DNA of 24,793 bases from a virus: IMG/VR virus record IMGVR_UViG_3300028025_003414, positions 1-24,793 of that record; one strand, given 5' to 3'. The position numbers and the translations under genes were made by a program. Each line of letters opens with the position of its first letter. Within the stretch, counting starts at the first letter, position 1. Shown here piece after piece: positions 2,166 through 19,852 of the stretch. Under the pieces are notes generated by a model that was not told the DNA's origin, ran no database searches, and worked only from the letters and a program-made list of their open reading frames with translations.

Positions 2166-2389
2166 CATTAAATGAACTGAGTAGGTACTACTGGGCACGG
2201 ATGAGCCAAGCCTCATACATGGAAGGGGCGATGAGAAACTTTGAATTGGGTGGTGTGTATGAGTATGGTACGTGGAGCTGCCTATTGAACTGGGCGTACT
2301 ACAAGGACATAGCCGACGAGATAAATGATTTGTATGGTTGCGCGGAGTGGGTAGAAGTAACTAACGAAATGAATGGAGTATCAAAATGA
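2162..2389 (+). CDS. Small hypothetical phage protein (75 aa)
   Basis: Begins MTLNELSRYYWARMSQASYM and ends NEMNGVSK. It is rich in Tyr and Trp. The ATG at 2162 overlaps the previous stop (ATGA) and follows AGGAGT, so it is preferred over an in-frame upstream ATG at 2096. The end overlaps the next gene by 4 nt. Function not recognised. Confidence 0.78.
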   Translation: MTLNELSRYYWARMSQASYMEGAMRNFELGGVYEYGTWSCLLNWAYYKDIADEINDLYGCAEWVEVTNEMNGVSK

Positions 2390-3240
2390 GTATTGCATCA
2401 AGCGCGGTTCTAGTGGAACTGAACATAAGTGTGTGGCCAGCCAACAAGGTTGACCGAGAGATGACCAACACAGTAAACGAGGCGGCGTCAGCAGTGCGTG
2501 ATGCTTCGCAGACACGTAAGAATCTGTTTGCAGGTACTAGCCTACGCAAAGACATTGAGAAGCTGGCGGCGCGTATACGCCTCTATCACAACCAGCACAC
2601 GATGCCTTGGGCCGACAAGGGCCAGCGACTGTTGCCGACTAAGTTGTTCATGGAGTACAAGCAGACGATGAATAACTACGAGGCGCAGTTCAAGCAGATG
2701 TGCGACAACTTCTTCATTGCTTACCCGCAGTTGGTGAACGAGGCACAGACGCACTTGGGCACGATGTACCGAGCGAGTGACTACCCTGAGTTAGCAGAGG
2801 TGGAGATGAAGTTTGGTTTCCGTATGGCGATTGACCCCATTCCTGAGTCTGGTGACTTTCGCTTGGACATATCAGCGCATGACTTAGACGAGATGAAGGC
2901 ACAGTACGAAGCCAAGTTCGACGAGCGACTGGCCGAGGCTATGCGTACACCTTGGGAGCGACTGCACACCGTGCTTACTGCCATGTCAGATAAGTTGAAA
3001 GACGAGGAAGGCAGTGATAGCACTAAGCGTTATCACGACTCGCTCGTGACCAATGCTGTGGACTTGTGCGGCTTGCTGGACAAGATGAACATTACGAACG
3101 ACCCCAAGCTGGAGGAAGCGCGTAAGCAGTTGGAGCTAACAATGTTAGGCGCTGACATTAAAACAATCAAAGAGAGTTCTCATGTGCGTGAGTCTATGAA
3201 GAACAAAGTAGATGCGATTTTGCAGAAGTTTGAATGGTAA
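2386..3240 (+). CDS. Conserved phage protein, possibly DUF3150-like (284 aa)
   Basis: Mostly helical and charged. It carries LVELNISVWPANKVDREM at the N-terminus, then LYHNQHTMPWADKGQRLLP and a YPELAEVEMKFGF segment. From memory this arrangement resembles a phage/prophage family filed as DUF3150; the name is tentative and no biochemical role is known. It is ATGA-coupled to the upstream gene. The C-terminal ELTMLGAD segment contains an exact copy of the dispersed palindrome. Proximity to the VWA/metallopeptidase gene suggests they may work together, but this is inference. Confidence 0.85.
   Translation: MSIASSAVLVELNISVWPANKVDREMTNTVNEAASAVRDASQTRKNLFAGTSLRKDIEKLAARIRLYHNQHTMPWADKGQRLLPTKLFMEYKQTMNNYEAQFKQMCDNFFIAYPQLVNEAQTHLGTMYRASDYPELAEVEMKFGFRMAIDPIPESGDFRLDISAHDLDEMKAQYEAKFDERLAEAMRTPWERLHTVLTAMSDKLKDEEGSDSTKRYHDSLVTNAVDLCGLLDKMNITNDPKLEEARKQLELTMLGADIKTIKESSHVRESMKNKVDAILQKFEW
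3136..3148. repeat. Dispersed palindrome copy 3 (inside 2386-3240 gene)
   Basis: CTAACAATGTTAG. It encodes Leu-Thr-Met-Leu in frame, the same tetrapeptide in the same frame as copy 6 in the unrelated DNA polymerase. Confidence 0.88.
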
Positions 3241-3391: not shown

Positions 3392-4224
3392 TTATGGCTA
3401 TTGAATTATTGAAGTTGCCCAACGTGCGTATGGGTAAGACCGCTGGAAACATAGAAGAGGGCCAGCTACATGGCGAGGCCAAGCGATTGGCTTGGGAGGT
3501 TGCGACCAAGAACCCACTATGGACTATCGAGGTCGATGGATTCCGTACCTACCGTGTACTAGCTGATACCGAGGTGCTGGGTTACGTCGGCTCCGAGTGG
3601 TATGGCAGTAGCCACAAGTTGTTTGTTCGCAACAACCGAATCGCAATGCAGAGCGAACGTAAGAACGCATACCACACCGACAAGGTTGATAAGGCGATGC
3701 TCAAGGTAAAGAAAACCTTCGGCGCTATGTCACTGCCCGAGCGTATGCTCGATGCCGCGAAGAAGACCGAGGATGTATTGAGTAACCAAGCACATCGTAT
3801 ACGTGTTCGAGCGCGTGAGCATGAACGTCCGATTGAGATAGGTTTGGATAGATGGGCGCGTGACAACATAACCCAGTACATCCTATGGCTGAAGCAGACA
3901 AACAATGTAGTAGTACTAGAGCACATGGAGAAGCTAAACGATGTCAAAGCCGACATGGTGACTATTGAGGAAACTACTAAGGCGTTTCAGAACCAAAGAA
4001 CTGCGCTGGTGGTATTGGCAGACGGGAAATATATTGTTAAGATACGTGACAATGTACAACTGTATGATGATGCGACTCTACCCGTGGAGCTACGTGGCAA
4101 GCTAGGTATGCTCAAGCTGGTGGAGAAAGAAGCAATGGTAACTGGCATAGGTTGTCGAGTTAACGATGAAATTTTTGTGTTGATTTTGGAGAATGAAGAT
4201 GAAGAAACCAAACCCCAAATTTGA
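3388..4224 (+). CDS. Hypothetical phage protein (278 aa)
   Basis: Begins MIMAIELLKLPNVRMGKTAG. The middle has DGFRTYRVLADTEVLGYVGS followed by a basic helical part, and the C-terminus is a beta-rich region ending in an acidic tail (ENEDEETKPQ). The start at 3388 overlaps the upstream stop; ATG 3394 with a 9-nt spacing to AAGG is an alternative. No domain recognised. It overlaps the next gene by 26 nt. Confidence 0.82.
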   Translation: MIMAIELLKLPNVRMGKTAGNIEEGQLHGEAKRLAWEVATKNPLWTIEVDGFRTYRVLADTEVLGYVGSEWYGSSHKLFVRNNRIAMQSERKNAYHTDKVDKAMLKVKKTFGAMSLPERMLDAAKKTEDVLSNQAHRIRVRAREHERPIEIGLDRWARDNITQYILWLKQTNNVVVLEHMEKLNDVKADMVTIEETTKAFQNQRTALVVLADGKYIVKIRDNVQLYDDATLPVELRGKLGMLKLVEKEAMVTGIGCRVNDEIFVLILENEDEETKPQI

Positions 4225-4396
4225 AGGTTGGCCTACAACCCGATGCTACCCACGTAGCCTAGACGAAGCGTTTCCCCAAGACCGACTTGGTGAGTGGTGG
4301 ACTGCCCACAAGCGCCCCATGCCAACGTGGAATGACTTTGTGCTATACGCCCTAACAGTGTTAGTGCTTTTATTGCTGGCGAGGTTATTCGCATGA
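4199..4396 (+). CDS. Small tail-anchored membrane protein (65 aa)
   Basis: A polar, Pro-rich N-terminal part (MKKPNPKFEGWPTTRCYPRS) is followed by a C-terminal hydrophobic helix at about residues 46-64, ending LLLLARLFA. This predicts a tail anchor. GGAGA at 4188-4192 is 6-7 nt from the ATG at 4199, so this start is preferred to the ATG at 4193. The gene begins inside the preceding one and ends with an ATGA overlap. The variant palindrome lies in the membrane-helix codons. Function unknown. Confidence 0.75.
   Translation: MKKPNPKFEGWPTTRCYPRSLDEAFPQDRLGEWWTAHKRPMPTWNDFVLYALTVLVLLLLARLFA
4352..4364. repeat. Dispersed palindrome, centre variant (copy 4)
   Basis: CTAACAGTGTTAG. Both 6-bp arms are identical to the other copies and only the central base is G. 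It lies in the codons for the hydrophobic helix of the 4199-4396 gene. Conservation of the arms with a free centre fits binding by a symmetric dimer. Confidence 0.75.
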
Positions 4397-7329: not shown

Positions 7330-7348
7330 AGAGGAAGCACTTTTATGA
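7106..7348 (+). CDS. Small basic protein encoded in an overlapping frame (80 aa)
   Basis: Begins MSELKTMKASATSCSAPKRK, a basic and probably flexible N-terminus. The C-terminus has LTQAELNAWWPFTRLDPKLF and ends SIDFEEEALL. AGAGGA is about 5 nt before the ATG, and the stop forms an ATGA overlap with the next gene, the junction style used throughout this operon. It shares 224 nt with the 7054 frame. Either both are expressed or one is spurious; the ends of both look like real gene ends. Confidence 0.55.
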   Translation: MSELKTMKASATSCSAPKRKPKNGLSPKEKKIALSSKSEQPSRRLTQAELNAWWPFTRLDPKLFPKPIKQSIDFEEEALL

Positions 7349-7542
7349 CAACAGGAATTGAATATCTGAAACCCGAGAAGAAACGACAAGGTCGCGGTCC
7401 AAGCAAGAAGCCGACCCTTGTTAATACGAGCTTGCGTTTGCCGCGAGAGGTAGTCGAGTACTTCGAGACCTTTCCCAACAAGCAAGCCAAAATCCGAGAA
7501 GTTCTTGTGAATTATGTAGAAACCCAAACTGGAGAATTTTGA
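7345..7542 (+). CDS. Ribbon-helix-helix type DNA-binding protein candidate (65 aa)
   Basis: After a basic N-terminus (PEKKRQGRGPSKKPT), residues about 26-59 read VNTSLRLPREVVEYFETFPN followed by a helix ending VLVNYV. This matches the ribbon-helix-helix pattern: one beta-strand with alternating residues, then two helices, and it resembles BrnA/CopG-type proteins. Such proteins bind palindromic DNA as dimers and usually act as repressors. No toxin gene is beside it, so a toxin-antitoxin role is not supported. It lies about 580 bp before a palindrome next to promoter P1, making it a candidate for binding that repeat (inference). Confidence 0.72.
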   Translation: MTTGIEYLKPEKKRQGRGPSKKPTLVNTSLRLPREVVEYFETFPNKQAKIREVLVNYVETQTGEF

Positions 7543-7543
7543 A

Positions 7544-8113
7544 ATGGCAACAGCTAAAAAAGTGAACAAAGCAGAGCAAGTCCGTGCGTACCAAGCGAAG
7601 AACCCTGACGCTAGTGCTATGAAAGTAGCCAAAGCGTGTAACACAAACCCAGCGTATGTGTACGCTATCCGCGCCAGCGACAAGGGCAAAGCCGCGAAGA
7701 CACCAAAGAAGGAAGACTGGAAGACCGTGATGCTGGCCACGAGCAAAAAGGCAATGGTTAAGCACCTCGGCGTGACTATGGCCAAAGATGACGTCACCAA
7801 ACTGACGGAAGAACAAACAGCACGTTTGATTTTCAACAACACCCAAGGCCGTCAACGTATGCAGTCGCAGGGCTTACCCTACGGGAAAAATATCGAGATG
7901 ATCGAACCACAAGCCGACAACGTCAACCATCCTGCTCATTACAAGGTAGGTGGAATCGAGACCATCGACTTCATCGAAGCTAAGGGTTTGAACTACCACT
8001 TGGGTAACGTGGTGAAGTACATCACGCGCGCCGACACTAAAGGCAACCGCGAGGAAGACCTGCTCAAAGCACGTTGGTACCTGAACCGCGAGATTGCCAA
8101 GTTCGCTAAGTAA
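7544..8113 (+). CDS. DUF3310 protein with an HTH-like N-terminus (189 aa)
   Basis: The C-terminal region from about residue 125 reads VNHPAHYKVGGIETIDFIEA and continues through VVKYITRADTKGNREEDLLK, a clear DUF3310 domain. This family relates to T7 gp1.7, a nucleotide kinase, though other members are untested. Residues 10-45 (AEQVRAYQAKNPDASAMKVA, then KACNTNPAYVYAIRAS) look like a helix-turn-helix, joined by a basic linker. A role in nucleotide metabolism, DNA binding, or both is possible. GGAG lies 9 nt upstream. It is the last gene before the palindrome and P1. Confidence 0.88.
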   Translation: MATAKKVNKAEQVRAYQAKNPDASAMKVAKACNTNPAYVYAIRASDKGKAAKTPKKEDWKTVMLATSKKAMVKHLGVTMAKDDVTKLTEEQTARLIFNNTQGRQRMQSQGLPYGKNIEMIEPQADNVNHPAHYKVGGIETIDFIEAKGLNYHLGNVVKYITRADTKGNREEDLLKARWYLNREIAKFAK

Positions 8114-8125
8114 AAACACGGGGGG

Positions 8126-8138
8126 CTAACAATGTTAG
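8126..8138. repeat. Dispersed palindrome copy 5 (extended, beside promoter P1)
   Basis: The core CTAACAATGTTAG is extended here to GGGCTAACAATGTTAGCCC (8123-8141), with 9-bp arms. It begins 10 nt after the DUF3310 stop and ends 2 nt before the -35 box of P1. It could form an RNA hairpin but is not followed by a U-run, so an operator is more likely than a terminator. Confidence 0.88.
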
Positions 8139-8143
8139 CCCTC

Positions 8144-8171
8144 TTGACAAAGTCTAATTATGTGGTACAGT
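8144..8171 (+). promoter_or_regulatory. Promoter P1: sigma70-type with extended -10
   Basis: TTGACA (8144-8149), 16-nt spacer, TACAGT (8166-8171), with TG at 8163-8164 forming an extended -10. The predicted start of transcription is near 8178. It matches P2 at 23 of 28 positions, including much of the spacer. The operator-like palindrome at 8123-8141 is immediately upstream. It would drive the operon from 8194. Confidence 0.82.
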
Positions 8172-9196: not shown

Positions 9197-9693
9197 CCGA
9201 ACTATCTAACGCAGTGACCGTTCTGATTGCGCGGATGGAATCACACCCCGAAGACTTTGCGGTAGACGATGGGGAACTGTACTCAAAGTCTAAGTTTGGG
9301 GATATGGTGAACGGGCTCTACGCGCTGTCGGAGGTTGACACCTCCTTGAAGAACGCCTTTTGGTATTTGAACGATGCCGACAAGCAAGCGTTGGCCGATG
9401 CGTGGAAGAAGTACCACTACACAAAGTTCGAGAAGAGAGTCATGGAGAAAATCTTTGACGACGGCGCGGAAGAACGTGAGCGTATGCAGATGAAACAGCA
9501 GATGTACCAAGCGCAACAGAGGGCAATGATTCAAAACCAAATGATGCAAAGCACGGGCACGTTCCAAACCGCCACAATCAAACCCGGCCAACTTACCTCC
9601 ATGTCAAACAGCGCACAAAACAGCTTACTCGGTACTATCGGCTCATCAGGTATAGGCAACGCCATCCAAGGAATTTTTGGGGGTTCTAAATGA
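9193..9693 (+). CDS. Phage protein with ARMESHPED motif and Gln-rich tail (166 aa)
   Basis: LIARMESHPEDFAVDDGE at the N-terminus matches the preceding protein. Helices follow (LADAWKKYHYTKFEKRVMEK), then a Gln/Met-rich stretch (MKQQMYQAQQRAMIQNQMMQ) and a low-complexity Gly/Ser tail, so the second half is probably flexible or coiled-coil. GGAGG is 6 nt upstream. It is ATGA-coupled to DNA polymerase, so a role near replication is possible. Confidence 0.87.
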   Translation: MTELSNAVTVLIARMESHPEDFAVDDGELYSKSKFGDMVNGLYALSEVDTSLKNAFWYLNDADKQALADAWKKYHYTKFEKRVMEKIFDDGAEERERMQMKQQMYQAQQRAMIQNQMMQSTGTFQTATIKPGQLTSMSNSAQNSLLGTIGSSGIGNAIQGIFGGSK

Positions 9694-11510
9694 ACATCAT
9701 CACGATTGATTTTGAATCGGCGTATGGCGCTGATCTCGGCTTCTCTAAACAGACTACTGAGGAATACGTACGTGACCCGCGCTTCGAAGTCGTCGGCGTT
9801 GCAGTGCAGATCAATGACGGTGAGCCCGAGTGGTACACAGGTGATTCGATTGGCACGTATGCCTTCCTCAAACAGTTCGATTGGGAGAACTCACTTGCGC
9901 TGGCGCACAACGCTATGTTCGACGGGTTCATCCTGACCGAGCACTTCCAAATCAAACCGAAGGGTTGGTTGGACACCTTGTCGATGGGCCGAGCGCTTCA
10001 CGGTACGAACGTAGGCGGTAGCCTGAAGGTTCTGGCGGAGTTCTATGGCATCGGCGAGAAGGGCACTGAGGTCAACGATGCGAAGGGCTTACGCCGCACT
10101 GACTTCCCGAAGGAACAGCTAGCTCAGTATGGGGAGTACTGTAAGAACGACGTGCGCCTGACATGGGACTTGTTCGGGTGCATGAGCCAAGACTTCCCGA
10201 AGACGGAGTTGCGTTTGATCGACCTGACCATCCGTATGTTCACCGAGCCAGTCTTGCAACTGGATGAGGGGATGCTGAACGTACACCTACACAAAGAGCG
10301 CCAACGCAAGGCCGAGCTGCTGGAGAACTTCGACAAAGACACGCTGATGAGCAACCCCAAGTTCGCCGAGTTGCTTACGGTTCATGGTGTCGTGCCACCA
10401 ATGAAGAAGAGCCCAGCGACAGGAAAGGAAACCTATGCGTTCGCAAAGACAGACGAGGCGTTTAAAGAACTTCTCGAACATCCGAATCCAGCCGTTCAAG
10501 CTCTCGTCGCAGCCCGACTGGGTACGAAGTCTACGATTGAGGAGTCGAGAACTGAACGTTTTATTGGGATTGCTCGGCGAGGTGCCATGCCAGTTCCCCT
10601 CCGATATTACGCCGCTCACACAGGACGGTGGGGTGGTGACGACAAACTTAACCTTCAGAACTTGCCGAGGGGGTCGGCGCTGAAGAAATCCATCCTCGCT
10701 CCTGCGGGGTACTTGATGATCGACTCCGACTCATCACAAATTGAAGCCCGTACGCTGGCATGGCTAGCTGGGCAAGACGACTTAGTGGAGGCATTTGACC
10801 GTGGCGAGGACGTATACAAAATCATGGCATCTGCTATCTATGGCAAGGCTGTCGAAGAAATCACAAAGGACGAGCGCTTTGTGGGCAAGACAACAATCCT
10901 TGGGGCAGGTTACGGAATGGGTGCAGCGAAGTTTCAGGCGCAGCTTAAGAACTTTGGGGTGGCAGTTGAACTGGAAGAAGCCAAGCGCATCATAGACACA
11001 TACCGTCAGACGTACCCAAAGATCACCGCGCTGTGGAAAGCGGCGGGTACTGCGTTAGAAGCAATTCTGCGCGGCCAGCTAACAATGTTAGGTCGTGACG
11101 GCATCCTGAAGATCGAAGGTAAAGACGGCATCCGCTTGCCCAACGGCTTGTATATCCGCTACCCGAACCTGCGTCAGAAGGCCGACGAGGAAACAGGCAA
11201 GACCGAGATTGTGTACGACACGAAGAAGGGCCGAGCCGTTATCCCCAACCGCATCTACGGCGGGAAGGTAATCGAAAACGTATGCCAAGCCCTAGCGCGT
11301 ATCATCATCGGCGACCAAATGCTGATGATTGCCAAGAAGTATCACGTTGTGATGACTGTGCATGACGCGGTGGCTTGTATCGTCAAGACCGAAGAGGTTG
11401 CGACTGCTGTGGAATACGTCGAGATGTGTATGCGCATCCGACCCAAGTGGGGCATGGAGTTGCCCTTGAATTGCGAATCAGGATACGGAGAGAGCTATGG
11501 CGACTGTTAA
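9690..11510 (+). CDS. Family A DNA polymerase with 3'-5' exonuclease (606 aa)
   Basis: Replicative polymerase of the PolA/T7 type. The exonuclease domain has DFES (Asp7, Glu9), AHNAMFDG (Asp78) and YCKND (Tyr150, Asp154), so proofreading should be active. The polymerase domain has motif A DSSQIEAR with catalytic Asp347, and motif B with Arg396, Lys400, Leu404 and Tyr408. Motif C is VHDA (His558, Asp559). Position 404 corresponds to E. coli Phe762, here Leu, a known variant in viral PolA. The usual VHDE glutamate is Ala560. There is no 5'-3' exonuclease domain. A palindrome copy sits in the codons for LTML (464-467). It is coupled to the gene before and overlaps the next by 14 nt. Confidence 0.96.
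   Translation: MNIITIDFESAYGADLGFSKQTTEEYVRDPRFEVVGVAVQINDGEPEWYTGDSIGTYAFLKQFDWENSLALAHNAMFDGFILTEHFQIKPKGWLDTLSMGRALHGTNVGGSLKVLAEFYGIGEKGTEVNDAKGLRRTDFPKEQLAQYGEYCKNDVRLTWDLFGCMSQDFPKTELRLIDLTIRMFTEPVLQLDEGMLNVHLHKERQRKAELLENFDKDTLMSNPKFAELLTVHGVVPPMKKSPATGKETYAFAKTDEAFKELLEHPNPAVQALVAARLGTKSTIEESRTERFIGIARRGAMPVPLRYYAAHTGRWGGDDKLNLQNLPRGSALKKSILAPAGYLMIDSDSSQIEARTLAWLAGQDDLVEAFDRGEDVYKIMASAIYGKAVEEITKDERFVGKTTILGAGYGMGAAKFQAQLKNFGVAVELEEAKRIIDTYRQTYPKITALWKAAGTALEAILRGQLTMLGRDGILKIEGKDGIRLPNGLYIRYPNLRQKADEETGKTEIVYDTKKGRAVIPNRIYGGKVIENVCQALARIIIGDQMLMIAKKYHVVMTVHDAVACIVKTEEVATAVEYVEMCMRIRPKWGMELPLNCESGYGESYGDC
11079..11091. repeat. Dispersed palindrome copy 6 (inside DNA polymerase)
   Basis: CTAACAATGTTAG within the polymerase gene, encoding Leu-Thr-Met-Leu at residues 464-467. 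The reading frame relative to the repeat is the same as in copy 3. Confidence 0.88.
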
Positions 11511-12432
11511 CAAACCACTTATTGACAAGTTTTTTGACCGTGTCACATCCAACGAGTTTGGGATACCGATTGAGTTCCGACACAACGTACCGAAGAAGGA
11601 CGTGCAGACATTCATTCTGTCGCCCGAAGTTGCGTTGAGCGCCGAGATGCTTGTGCGTTCCAAGTCTTTCAAGATGCCGACCCTCGATGAGTTGCACATG
11701 CCGTACCCACATACGGTGATTGAGTACCCGCTGACTGAGGAGATTCGCAAGCTACGCCACAACGGACTTATCAACGGCATCGTGGAGATTACACGCATTG
11801 GCGCGTACATCCGAGAGATGGACAACGGGGTGTTCACTTGCTTGCCGTACTGGGAGTTTGTTGACGGCAGAATCCAGCACAGCTTCTTCACCTTCTTGTT
11901 TGGCATGGATGCCCTCGGAGCGTTTAAGGTGTCTCTTAGCGCCAAGACCAACGGGGAAGGCGCGGTCGATTGCAACCTCATCCCATGCACAGCGTTCGTC
12001 ATGGCCGCAGAAAAAGCGGGGGTCACACCTGAACACATGGAGCAGGTATTCCAAGCGCCTGAGACACAACAGCACATCAAGGAAGCCGCCACAGAAATCC
12101 CGTGCTTGATGTTCGCTTCCTATCTCTTGCTTAGCTGTAAGAGTGGTGTGGGCCGGACCAAGGTTCCCGCACGGACACCGCCCAAGGGCATGAAGCTCGG
12201 CGGTAAGAAACAGAAGGCATACTCTGCTAGCGCGTACACGTTGTTGCATTTGGAAGAGATTGAGAGCGTCACCTCTGAGGGTGTTGTCAGCCATCGTTCA
12301 GATATTTCAGCCCACTACGTGCGAGGCCACTTCAAACAACGCAAGAGCGGTATCTATTGGTGGAATTCATTTGTGCGCGGCAACGGGGAACCCCGTAAAC
12401 GCGAAGCTTACTTGGTAGAAGAAACAGCATGA
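11497..12432 (+). CDS. Conserved phage protein of unknown function (311 aa)
   Basis: Alpha/beta protein with the C-terminal signature HYVRGHFKQRKSGIYWWNSF followed by VRGNGEPRKR. This Arg/His/Trp-rich ending is shared (from memory) by many phage proteins encoded beside DNA polymerase. It looks like a nucleic-acid-binding tail, but its function is untested. GGAGAG precedes the ATG at 11497, which lies inside the end of the polymerase gene. It ends with an ATGA overlap onto the Cas4-like gene. Confidence 0.88.
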   Translation: MATVNKPLIDKFFDRVTSNEFGIPIEFRHNVPKKDVQTFILSPEVALSAEMLVRSKSFKMPTLDELHMPYPHTVIEYPLTEEIRKLRHNGLINGIVEITRIGAYIREMDNGVFTCLPYWEFVDGRIQHSFFTFLFGMDALGAFKVSLSAKTNGEGAVDCNLIPCTAFVMAAEKAGVTPEHMEQVFQAPETQQHIKEAATEIPCLMFASYLLLSCKSGVGRTKVPARTPPKGMKLGGKKQKAYSASAYTLLHLEEIESVTSEGVVSHRSDISAHYVRGHFKQRKSGIYWWNSFVRGNGEPRKREAYLVEETA

Positions 12433-13097
12433 CACAACCAATCAAATGGTCTTTCAGTAGCCTGAAGACGTTCCAACAATGCCCGAAGAAGTACTACCAC
12501 ACCAAGGTAGCCAAGGATGTTAAGGAGCCCGACACCACGGCTACGCTGTACGGTAAGACGGCGCATACCGTTGCTGAGGAATACATTAAAGACGGAACAC
12601 CGATCCCTCCGGCCTTTGAATATCTTAGAGATACGCTAGACGCTCTAGCCGCTATCCCCGGGATTAAATTGTGCGAGGAAGAACTTGGCCTGACCAAAGA
12701 CCTTGAGCCATGCGCGTTTGACGCACCCGAGGCATGGTGGCGTGGCATTGCCGACTTGGTCATCTTGGACGAGGAGAAGGAGCTGGCGTGGTCGGTTGAC
12801 TACAAAACCAGCAAGAGCGCCCGTTATGCTGACGTGAAACAGTTGGACTTGGTGGCCACGGCCATCTTCAAGAAGTACCCCAAAATCAAGCGCATCAAGT
12901 CAGCCCTGCTGTTTGTCGTGAGCAAGGAGTTCGTCAAGGCTACGCACCACGCCGAGATGGTGGCTAAGTACATGGAGAAACCCAGCCAAGACGTTGCCCG
13001 TATCGAAGCAGCTTTGGAGAACGGCGTGTGGAACCCCGTGACTGGACCCTTATGCCGATTTTGTGCAGTGAAGCAGTGTGAACATAACAGGAGTTGA
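12429..13097 (+). CDS. Cas4-like PD-(D/E)XK exonuclease with Fe-S cysteines (222 aa)
   Basis: The nuclease core shows His46 (GKTAHTVAEEY), Asp109 (WWRGIADLVI) and DYKTSK with Asp124 and Lys126, the PD-(D/E)XK layout. Cys18 (QQCPKKYYH) plus Cys209, Cys212 and Cys217 (CRFCAVKQC) form the four-cysteine set that holds a 4Fe-4S cluster in Cas4 and AddB-type nucleases. It probably resects DNA ends for recombination, together with the SNF2 helicase and ssDNA-binding candidate downstream. No other Cas genes are present, so this is a phage recombination nuclease. Confidence 0.93.
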   Translation: MTQPIKWSFSSLKTFQQCPKKYYHTKVAKDVKEPDTTATLYGKTAHTVAEEYIKDGTPIPPAFEYLRDTLDALAAIPGIKLCEEELGLTKDLEPCAFDAPEAWWRGIADLVILDEEKELAWSVDYKTSKSARYADVKQLDLVATAIFKKYPKIKRIKSALLFVVSKEFVKATHHAEMVAKYMEKPSQDVARIEAALENGVWNPVTGPLCRFCAVKQCEHNRS

Positions 13098-13708: not shown

Positions 13709-15102
13709 GCCTAGCGAACTACGAATGGCCTCGTCCTCATGGGTTCGAGCCATTCAACCACCAAAAAGAAACAGCGCAATTCCTGACCACCAACCGCAAG
13801 GCGTTCTGCTTCAACGAGCAGGGTACAGGTAAGACAGCGTCAGTGATTTGGGCGGTGGACTATTTGATGCAGCGAAGTATTGTGAAGAGAGTGTTAGTGA
13901 TTTGCCCTTTGTCGATCATGAAGTCGGCATGGCAACAGGACTTGTTCAAGTTCGCTATTCATCGCACAGTAGCAGTAGCCCACGGCAGCGCGCGCAAGCG
14001 CAAAGAAATCATCAACGCTGGTGCCGAGTTCGTCATCATCAACTTCGATGGTGTCGAGATTGTGAAGAACGAAATCATCAACGGGGGGTTTGACCTCATC
14101 GTTGTGGACGAAGCCTCTGCGTATAAGAACGCACAGACAACCCGCTGGAAGACCCTGCGTGACATTAACAAAGTCGTCAAAGGCTTGTGGATGTTGACAG
14201 GTACGCCAGCGGCGCAGTCTCCGCTCGATGCGTATGGCTTGGCCAAACTGATTAACCCAACGGGTGTGCCCATGTTCCACGGCCAGTACAAGGACATGGT
14301 CATGACGCAGCTCACCAAGTTCAAGTGGATTCCGAAGCCGACTGCCAAGCACACGGTACACAGCATCCTCCAACCCGCTATTCGGTTTGTGAAGAAGGAC
14401 TGTATCGACTTGCCGCCTCTGACGTTCATCGACCGTGATGCGCCATTGACTCCGCAGCAAGCCAAGTACTACGGTATTCTCAAGAAGGAGATGTTGTTGG
14501 AGGCAGCGGGCGAAGAAGTCTCAGCCGTGAACGCCGCGACCAAGATGAGTAAGCTGCTTCAGATTTCTTGTGGCTCGGTCTACACCGACACTGGCGAGGT
14601 GCTTGAGTTCGACGTGTCCAACCGCATGAACGTGGTGCAGGAAGTCATCGACGAGAGCAGCAACAAGGTATTGGTGTTCGTACCCTTTACGCACACCATC
14701 GAGATGCTCCAAAAGCATCTGACCAAGAACGGCATAACGTGTGACGTGATTAACGGAGCCGTGCCAGTGAACCGCCGCAGTGACATTGTGCGCGACTTCC
14801 AAGACCAGCCGACTACGAAGGTGCTCATCATCCAGCCACAAGCTGCATCGCACGGGCTTACCCTTACGGCGGCTGACACAATCATTTGGTACGCTCCCTG
14901 TACCAGCGTGGAGACTTATCTTCAGGCCAACGCACGTATTGACCGCCCCGGTCAGGTCAACCCAATGACCATCGTGCACATCTGTGGGAGCCAAACTGAA
15001 CGTCGGGTTTACTCGATGCTTCGGGGGAACGTATCCAACCACCAACAAATCATTGATTTGTACCGACAAGAAATTTCTTCTGAAGATGTTGACAATGTCT
15101 AA
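13705..15102 (+). CDS. SNF2/SF2-family helicase (465 aa)
   Basis: DNA-dependent ATPase. Motif I EQGTGKT ends at Lys43-Thr44, motif II is VVDEAS (Asp135-Glu136), motif III LTGTPA at 164-169, motif V SHGLTLTAAD near 382-391, and motif VI QANARIDRPGQ at 407-417. Both RecA-like domains are complete, with no extra accessory domain. Phage members probably remodel protein-DNA complexes or recombination intermediates; the direct substrate is unknown. It is coupled to the HNH-like gene. Its last codons contain the -35 box of P2. Confidence 0.95.
   Translation: MSLANYEWPRPHGFEPFNHQKETAQFLTTNRKAFCFNEQGTGKTASVIWAVDYLMQRSIVKRVLVICPLSIMKSAWQQDLFKFAIHRTVAVAHGSARKRKEIINAGAEFVIINFDGVEIVKNEIINGGFDLIVVDEASAYKNAQTTRWKTLRDINKVVKGLWMLTGTPAAQSPLDAYGLAKLINPTGVPMFHGQYKDMVMTQLTKFKWIPKPTAKHTVHSILQPAIRFVKKDCIDLPPLTFIDRDAPLTPQQAKYYGILKKEMLLEAAGEEVSAVNAATKMSKLLQISCGSVYTDTGEVLEFDVSNRMNVVQEVIDESSNKVLVFVPFTHTIEMLQKHLTKNGITCDVINGAVPVNRRSDIVRDFQDQPTTKVLIIQPQAASHGLTLTAADTIIWYAPCTSVETYLQANARIDRPGQVNPMTIVHICGSQTERRVYSMLRGNVSNHQQIIDLYRQEISSEDVDNV
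15068..15079. promoter_or_regulatory. AAGAAATTTCTT palindrome upstream of P2
   Basis: Perfect 12-bp inverted repeat ending 9 nt before the -35 box of P2, in the final codons of the helicase gene. It is in a position suitable for an activator or repressor, but a single copy this AT-rich could be chance. Confidence 0.35.
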
Positions 15103-15116
15103 AGATGTGATATAGT
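15089..15116 (+). promoter_or_regulatory. Promoter P2: sigma70-type with extended -10
   Basis: TTGACA (15089-15094), 16-nt spacer, TATAGT (15111-15116), with TG at 15108-15109. Transcription probably starts near 15123. It is a near copy of P1 (23 of 28 positions). The -35 overlaps GACAATGTC, an imperfect relative of the dispersed palindrome. It would drive the 15146, 15578 and 16475 genes. Confidence 0.85.
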
Positions 15117-15145: not shown

Positions 15146-15562
15146 ATGAGTGAAGAAAATGAAGCGGCCACACGGCCAGACCTAGATCAGCTTACCGCTA
15201 TCTACCTGAAGATTCGAGATACCCGCGCCGAGAACAAACGTGAGTTTGAGAACGTCGACAAAGACCTCGAAGAGCAACAGAAAATGCTGGCCGAGCAAAT
15301 GCTCGACTCATGCAAAGAGATTGGTGCCGACAGCATCAAGACCCCACACGGAACCATCATTCGTTCGGTCAAGTCAAAGTACTGGACTGGCGATTGGGAC
15401 TCCATGTACACCTTCATCAAGGAGCACAACGCCTTCGGCTTGCTGGAGAAACGATTGCATCAAACCAACATGAAGGACTTCCTCAACGAGAACCCTGACG
15501 CACTGCCGATGGGTTTGAACGTTGAGAGTGAATACACCATCGTCGTACGACGCGCTAAATAA
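15146..15562 (+). CDS. Conserved phage protein of unknown function (138 aa)
   Basis: An N-terminal coiled coil (residues about 20-55, with KREFENVDKDLEEQQKMLAE) is followed by IKTPHGTIIRSVKSKYWTGD, a Trp/Asp segment (DWDSMYTFIKEHN) and NESEYT-like GLNVESEYTIVVRR. From memory it is widespread in phages, where it sits near recombination or SSB genes. It is the first gene after P2, with GGAG 6 nt upstream. Its pairing with the next gene suggests a partner of the ssDNA-binding candidate. Confidence 0.88.
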   Translation: MSEENEAATRPDLDQLTAIYLKIRDTRAENKREFENVDKDLEEQQKMLAEQMLDSCKEIGADSIKTPHGTIIRSVKSKYWTGDWDSMYTFIKEHNAFGLLEKRLHQTNMKDFLNENPDALPMGLNVESEYTIVVRRAK

Positions 15563-16474: not shown

Positions 16475-16714
16475 ATGAGCTACGGATACAGCTACCAACT
16501 GGTTGAAGCCAATAAAAAGGCCGATGCTAAGTCATGGGGCGTCGTCCTTGGCCGCACTTGCATCCAACTCAATATTCCTGTGAGTGAGATAGCTGGTCGT
16601 CTTGATGTGAGTCGAGCGACCATCTACAACTGGTTCTGGGGCACTACGCTCCCGAGCCGTACTCACAGCGAGCAGATTGAGCGATTGCTCCCGCGCCTCA
16701 AGGCAAAAAAGTAA
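16475..16714 (+). CDS. Small helix-turn-helix DNA-binding protein (79 aa)
   Basis: Residues 35-56 (PVSEIAGRLDVSRATIYNWF and the following WG) form a clear HTH of the XRE/Cro type, with basic residues at the C-terminus (RLKAKK). Similar small proteins follow the SSB-like gene in other phages, from memory. It is the last gene before the UUCG hairpin and is co-transcribed from P2, so it may regulate P1/P2 or bind the dispersed palindrome (inference). AGGAG lies upstream of the ATG. Confidence 0.87.
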   Translation: MSYGYSYQLVEANKKADAKSWGVVLGRTCIQLNIPVSEIAGRLDVSRATIYNWFWGTTLPSRTHSEQIERLLPRLKAKK

Positions 16715-19824: not shown

Positions 19825-19852
19825 AGCCCCGCCTAGTGCGGGGCTTTTTTTT
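19825..19852 (+). terminator. Rho-independent terminator of the plus-strand block
   Basis: AGCCCCGC (19825-19832), loop CTAGT, GCGGGGCT (19838-19845), then a T-run to 19852. A textbook intrinsic terminator for the plus strand. The reverse direction lacks a T-run, so it should not stop the converging minus-strand transcript. The T-run overlaps the stop codon of the minus-strand gene. Confidence 0.93.

Follow-up and report, generated by a model that had tools for sequence, protein, structure and literature searches.

The window analysed here, a stretch of 24,793 nucleotides (IMG/VR virus record IMGVR_UViG_3300028025_003414, positions 1 to 24,793), is a fragment of an uncultured phage encoding a family A DNA polymerase (polA), a SNF2-type helicase, a PD-(D/E)XK exonuclease and a DUF927 primase-like protein. 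At 8123-8141 it contains a palindrome with two 9-bp arms, GGGCTAACA and TGTTAGCCC, flanking a central A at 8132. The core of this palindrome, CTAACA-N-TGTTAG, has seven copies in the window (at 784, 1704, 3136, 4352, 8126, 11079 and 19796). The copies and the features adjacent to the palindrome are as follows:

784-796, copy CTAACATTGTTAG, within the DUF2201/VWA gene
1704-1716, copy CTAACAATGTTAG, in which ORF 1411-1707 stops (TAA) and ORF 1710-2165 starts (ATG), preceded by an SD-like GGAGG
3136-3148, copy CTAACAATGTTAG, within ORF 2386-3240, in frame L-T-M-L
4352-4364, copy CTAACAGTGTTAG, with a G centre, within ORF 4193-4396
7544-8113, plus strand, last ORF before the palindrome, with an N-terminal HTH-like region and DUF3310
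8123-8141, extended palindrome GGGCTAACAATGTTAGCCC, core CTAACA-A-TGTTAG at 8126-8138, putative operator and terminator-like hairpin
8144-8171, plus strand, promoter P1, TTGACA, 16 nt, TACAGT, with a TG extension and a predicted start at about 8178
11079-11091, copy CTAACAATGTTAG, within polA, retained in the related locus L010 and altered in L007
19796-19808, copy CTAACAATGTTAG, after the last plus-strand ORF and before the terminator at 19825-19845

The palindrome at 8123-8141 is real and stands far above chance. With up to three mismatches, the 17-mer GGCTAACAATGTTAGCC gave nine strand-matches in the window (0.09 expected), and the 13-mer core, with up to two mismatches, gave 14 strand-matches at seven places (0.36 expected); none of the shuffled sequences reached either count. 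As described in an earlier note made from the letters of the window, the 9-bp arms end 2 nt before the -35 box TTGACA, which starts at 8144, and within the window this is both the sole copy at a promoter-like site and the strongest one. It is also the only copy with long G/C-extended arms, six G's preceding the core and CCCTC following it. Its RNA fold reached -16.9 kcal/mol (z -4.8), and the other window copies, each folded alone, were far weaker.

For comparison, 80 loci encoding relatives of the window polymerase were retrieved from IMG/VR. These are mostly fragmentary contigs related to one another, so that the counts given below include related phages, and gene calls and promoter scans were heuristic and based on simple rules. 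A search for recurring palindromes, run without a prior motif, recovered these arms from most of the loci that have long upstream sequence, separated by 1, 2 or 3 central bases; the consensus across relatives was CTAACA-N(1-3)-TGTTAG, a few phages carrying ATAACA/TGTTAT or CTGACA/TGTCAG arms instead. This recurrence throughout related phages, with other spacers and mostly left of polA, had been overlooked when the window was read alone. In 12 larger contigs, 120 sites were located left of polA (273 kb) versus 4 to its right (329 kb). Where contigs were whole or otherwise long, sites extended up to about 17 kb left of polA and numbered up to about 20 over that distance. As judged from these genomes, the sites form a dispersed array confined to the early region. 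Among 139 sites from 13 early regions, 66 were intergenic (24.6 expected) and 30 covered a start codon (4.5 expected), the remaining 43 (about 30%) being within genes; many copies included a gene's stop codon as well as the start of the gene after it. Regular spacing along the genome was looked for and was not general.

Several further observations concern the gene content of these loci. A DUF2201/VWA-type protein and an AAA-type (MoxR-like) ATPase are conserved in the early region (18-1013 in the window, 3102-4175 in L055), with palindromes inside and between their genes. ORF 3394-4224 encodes a fast-evolving 276-aa protein, of function not known, present in about 40 related loci; it is 70% identical between L055 and L058, where most of its conserved neighbours are 95-100% identical. 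A 311-aa ORF (11497-12432) in the interval between polA and the exonuclease was found in 7 loci only, the window included, its place being taken by other genes or none in L008, L021 and L055. In L007, a polA relative that is 90% identical, the innermost palindrome pair was lost alike at three sites (3038, 4786 and 6668; CTAACAAAGTTAG / CTAACAGAGTTAG). Phage and host are both uncultured; a host search gave three MAG contigs only and assigned no host. One of the loci (L112; CP070693.1, 1054672-1076510) carries a phage polA 60% identical to that of the window in a 1.1-Mb contig titled Dehalococcoidia MAG chromosome; runs of N gaps lie nearby, and the locus is possibly a misassembly or an integrated element.

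The relation of the palindrome to P1 was assessed across relatives. P1 scored 10 of 12 with its extended -10 TG, among the best promoter matches in the first 20 kb, and its reality is well supported by a P1-type promoter found upstream of polA in 67 related loci. In 63 of these 67 loci a palindrome lies at most 130 bp upstream of the promoter, as would be expected if a regulator bound at 8123-8141 acted directly on RNA polymerase at P1, as activator or repressor, and in the window the palindrome comes within 2 nt of the -35 box. However, the core palindrome is 5 bp away from the -35 box only in the window, L008 and L080; the distance is 23 bp in L085 and L086 and 41-55 bp in most other loci, and in 55 of 64 loci an intrinsic terminator separates the palindrome from the promoter. 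The action on RNA polymerase proposed in the earlier note is doubtful because of this varying distance and intervening terminator. The same site is moreover found at many promoterless places and downstream of early-type promoters, and a P1-specific operator is for these reasons improbable. An activator positioned at P1 was likewise rejected as a general rule, spacing being variable and a terminator usually lying between. A second promoter-like sequence of the window (TTGACA-16-TATAGT with a TG extension) was noted at 15089-15116, upstream of ORF 15146-15562.

Abutment of the palindrome on the -35 box was restricted to the window, L008 and L080, where the longer arms generate a strong RNA hairpin in the position occupied by the canonical terminator of relatives. 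The suggestion that the palindrome may act as a weak hairpin at the end of the upstream operon was thus better founded than had been stated, although the U-run is poor (UCUUGAC), and the terminator scan called the hairpin on the minus strand only, not on the plus strand. Taken further, 8123-8141 might be mainly the intrinsic terminator of the upstream operon, with the motif incidental. This reading draws on a strong hairpin at the exact terminator position of 55 relatives and on the same G/C extension in L008 and L080; besides the poor U-run, it leaves the other copies and the spacer pattern unexplained, and we consider it unlikely as the main account. For this one copy, a terminator function is compatible with an operator array.

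Promoter class provided a further distinction. Scanning yielded 39 promoters that were not of the P1 type, of which about 32 were left after dropping those of the TTGACAC(T/C)GT kind, located right of polA or near it. The early-type promoters so defined lie in the early region and have a 17-bp spacer and the consensus TTGAC(T/A)T...TAAC(T/A)TTGTGGTATAAT; none was seen in the window. A palindrome was present 35-82 bp (mostly 35-54) downstream of the -10 box in 30 of the approximately 32 early-type promoters, and downstream of 1 of 70 P1-type promoters. Since early-type promoters have the palindrome downstream, the common rule would be a position within or at the end of early transcripts, rather than beside P1. 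Classical operators hold a fixed position relative to the promoter that they control; the palindrome lies upstream of P1 and downstream of early-type promoters. In some early-type promoters, in the oriented genomes G016 (about 9503-9531 and 12551-12579) and G008 (about 35208-35236), an operator-like (A/G)TAACA-NNN-TGTTAT overlaps the core promoter, being contained in its spacer and -10 box. Promoters of the TTGACACTGTCAA type were observed right of polA in relatives, without palindromes.

Sites in the leaders of early-type transcripts, over start codons (30 of 139) or before terminators could also be RNA elements, acting as transcript hairpins in mRNA processing, stability or translation, and the -16.9 kcal/mol fold of the P1 copy would fit such a role. 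However, most copies fold weakly. Where a phage uses C as well as A at the outermost bases, the two sides varied approximately independently and were often mispaired (A with G), which disfavours an RNA element and points to recognition of DNA half-sites rather than to an RNA stem. Contrary to half-site recognition, the first flank position showed a modest excess of complementarity (89 versus 70.9 expected); positions 2 and 3 showed none, and in analogous sites of a Rhizobium phage, described below, inner positions pair in only 13 of 26 and 8 of 26. On balance, the RNA reading is quite improbable.

The length of the spacer between the arms was characteristic of each genome. In a set of 23 genomes or loci, 237 of the 251 sites had the majority spacer of their own genome, and the mutual information between genome and spacer was 1.157 of 1.356 bits, the maximum upon shuffling being 0.229; mixed spacers were found in G001, G016 and G018. 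Two pairs of close relatives were informative. L021, with spacer 1, and L071, with spacer 2, share their gene order and have many proteins at 75-100% identity; at four aligned sites the flanks are conserved and the spacer differs by exactly one base, and other sites occur in one of the two only. A similar exchange, of CTAACA-N3-TGTTAG and ATAACA-N2-TGTTA[G/T], was observed between L055 and L058. A one-base change of spacer at orthologous sites of near-identical phages argues for a trans-acting dimeric DNA-binding protein. The palindrome as a binding site for a regulator, as proposed earlier, is well supported.

Two other uses of dispersed repeats were considered. Palindromes at gene boundaries might promote the swapping of cassettes among early genes, and indeed many copies take in the end of a gene together with the start of its neighbour, and small early genes are patchily distributed. 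Yet about 30% of copies lie inside genes, some of them conserved (polA), and cassette swapping predicts neither a genome-wide uniform spacer nor single-base changes with intact flanks, which renders it highly improbable. Dispersed palindromes together with small DNA-binding-like proteins would also be found in a partition system with centromere-like sites. However, ParA (AAA_31), ParB_N and phage integrase models had no match in the contigs of five relatives (57-65 kb), which thus gave no sign of lysogeny or partition, and the sites are tied to promoters and genes; a role in partition is hardly credible.

Two small proteins of the window are candidates for binding the sites:

7345-7542, plus strand, 65-aa ribbon-helix-helix-like protein
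16475-16714, plus strand, 79-aa helix-turn-helix protein with an XRE / lambda-repressor-like predicted fold

The model predicted for the 79-aa protein had a pLDDT of 88, and its best PDB matches were mostly XRE / lambda-repressor-like, with weak E-values and high Foldseek probability. The 65-aa protein showed a weak match to an antitoxin family and a confident prediction for its two helices only, and sequence and fold searches of the PDB returned nothing useful for it. Both proteins are conserved across the phage family, and in both the putative DNA-contacting residues are conserved while other parts vary, as expected if a constant half-site were combined with a changing spacer. Tree congruence and association of residues with spacer gave no clear winner, neither candidate tracking spacer class cleanly; a ribbon-helix-helix protein identical over its length is present in L055 and L058, yet their site sets differ. 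The named phages that were searched had no match to either candidate. The N-terminal HTH of the DUF3310 protein was judged a less likely binder, its putative recognition helix being variable and the half-site constant. A host protein could bind the sites in place of the candidate phage proteins.

The explanation that we favour, and hold to be fairly probable, is that 8123-8141 forms the last operator in an array dispersed over the early region, at which a putative small dimeric regulator stops early transcription and spares P1. A small dimeric DNA-binding protein, probably encoded by the phage, would recognise two CTAACA half-sites at a spacing fixed in each phage. From sites downstream of early promoters, over gene starts, within genes and ahead of the terminator, the bound protein would block early transcription. 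P1 would escape the block because its palindrome is upstream of the -35 box. In the window phage the last operator seems to have become one with the terminator beside P1, its G/C-extended arms taking the place of the terminator found in most relatives. More tentatively, dispersed palindromic operators may represent a new class, a possibility that we rate somewhat short of probable, in which a small dimeric phage regulator uses up to about 20 sites, distributed along the early transcription units, to end early transcription and the half-site spacing changes in concert at all sites between near-identical phages. If true, multi-site control resembling that by stoperators would extend beyond temperate mycobacteriophages, with palindromic sites, and would operate in an abundant, apparently uncultured family of aquatic phages. 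It would also supply a straightforward guide to the early-to-middle switch in genomes of this family, and natural pairs differing mainly in operator spacing (L021/L071, L055/L058) in which to follow how a regulator and some twenty sites change specificity together.

Operators of XRE / lambda-repressor-like proteins (P22 c2, CylR2, restriction-modification controller proteins) are short palindromes bound by small HTH dimers. The 79-aa protein is predicted to have a fold of that type; by contrast, such operators are small in number and grouped at promoters, and the window family has up to about 20 sites over about 17 kb. A polA relative, Rhizobium phage RHph_TM3_14A (MN988472; L107, L109, L110), carries 34 dispersed palindromes of the GTTACC-N6-GGTAAC type (26 TTACC-N6-GGTAA and 8 with spacer 5) over its whole 61-kb genome, many at gene boundaries; unlike those of the window family, they have different arms, a longer spacer and a genome-wide spread. 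Neither an annotation nor a paper that describes them was found, and the part of Pseudomonas phage KPP25 examined had no such palindrome set.

Start-Associated Sequences (SAS) of Cluster K mycobacteriophages are short repeats at translation starts, present in 11-19 copies per genome, whose extended form is an inverted repeat with variable spacer and a binder that is not known (PMC3203893). Of the sites of the window family, 30 of 139 are at translation starts (4.5 expected), most being elsewhere. SAS are, however, asymmetric (GGGATAGGAGCCC), a consensus that CTAACA-N(1-3)-TGTTAG does not match, and in the window family start codons account for about one fifth of the sites, and a site follows the early-type promoters. 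The stoperators of Cluster A mycobacteriophages (L5, Bxb1, TipsytheTRex) are dispersed copies of a short site, mostly off promoters, at which one repressor binds and stops transcription, with specificity varying between related phages; each is an asymmetric 13-mer that is bound by a monomer and lies in the direction of transcription, and the phages are temperate, with an immunity repressor that combines an HTH and a Stoperator domain (PMC9283540, PMC6550527). The window-family sites are also many, short, dispersed and mostly off promoters. In contrast to stoperators, they are palindromic, with a centre of A or T in either orientation, and often lie over start codons or inside genes; the phages differ mainly in spacer length, and five relatives had no integrase match. 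Because they lack the asymmetry of stoperators and do not conform to the SAS consensus, the sites appear to belong to neither group, and they would work like stoperators and, in their placement, like SAS.
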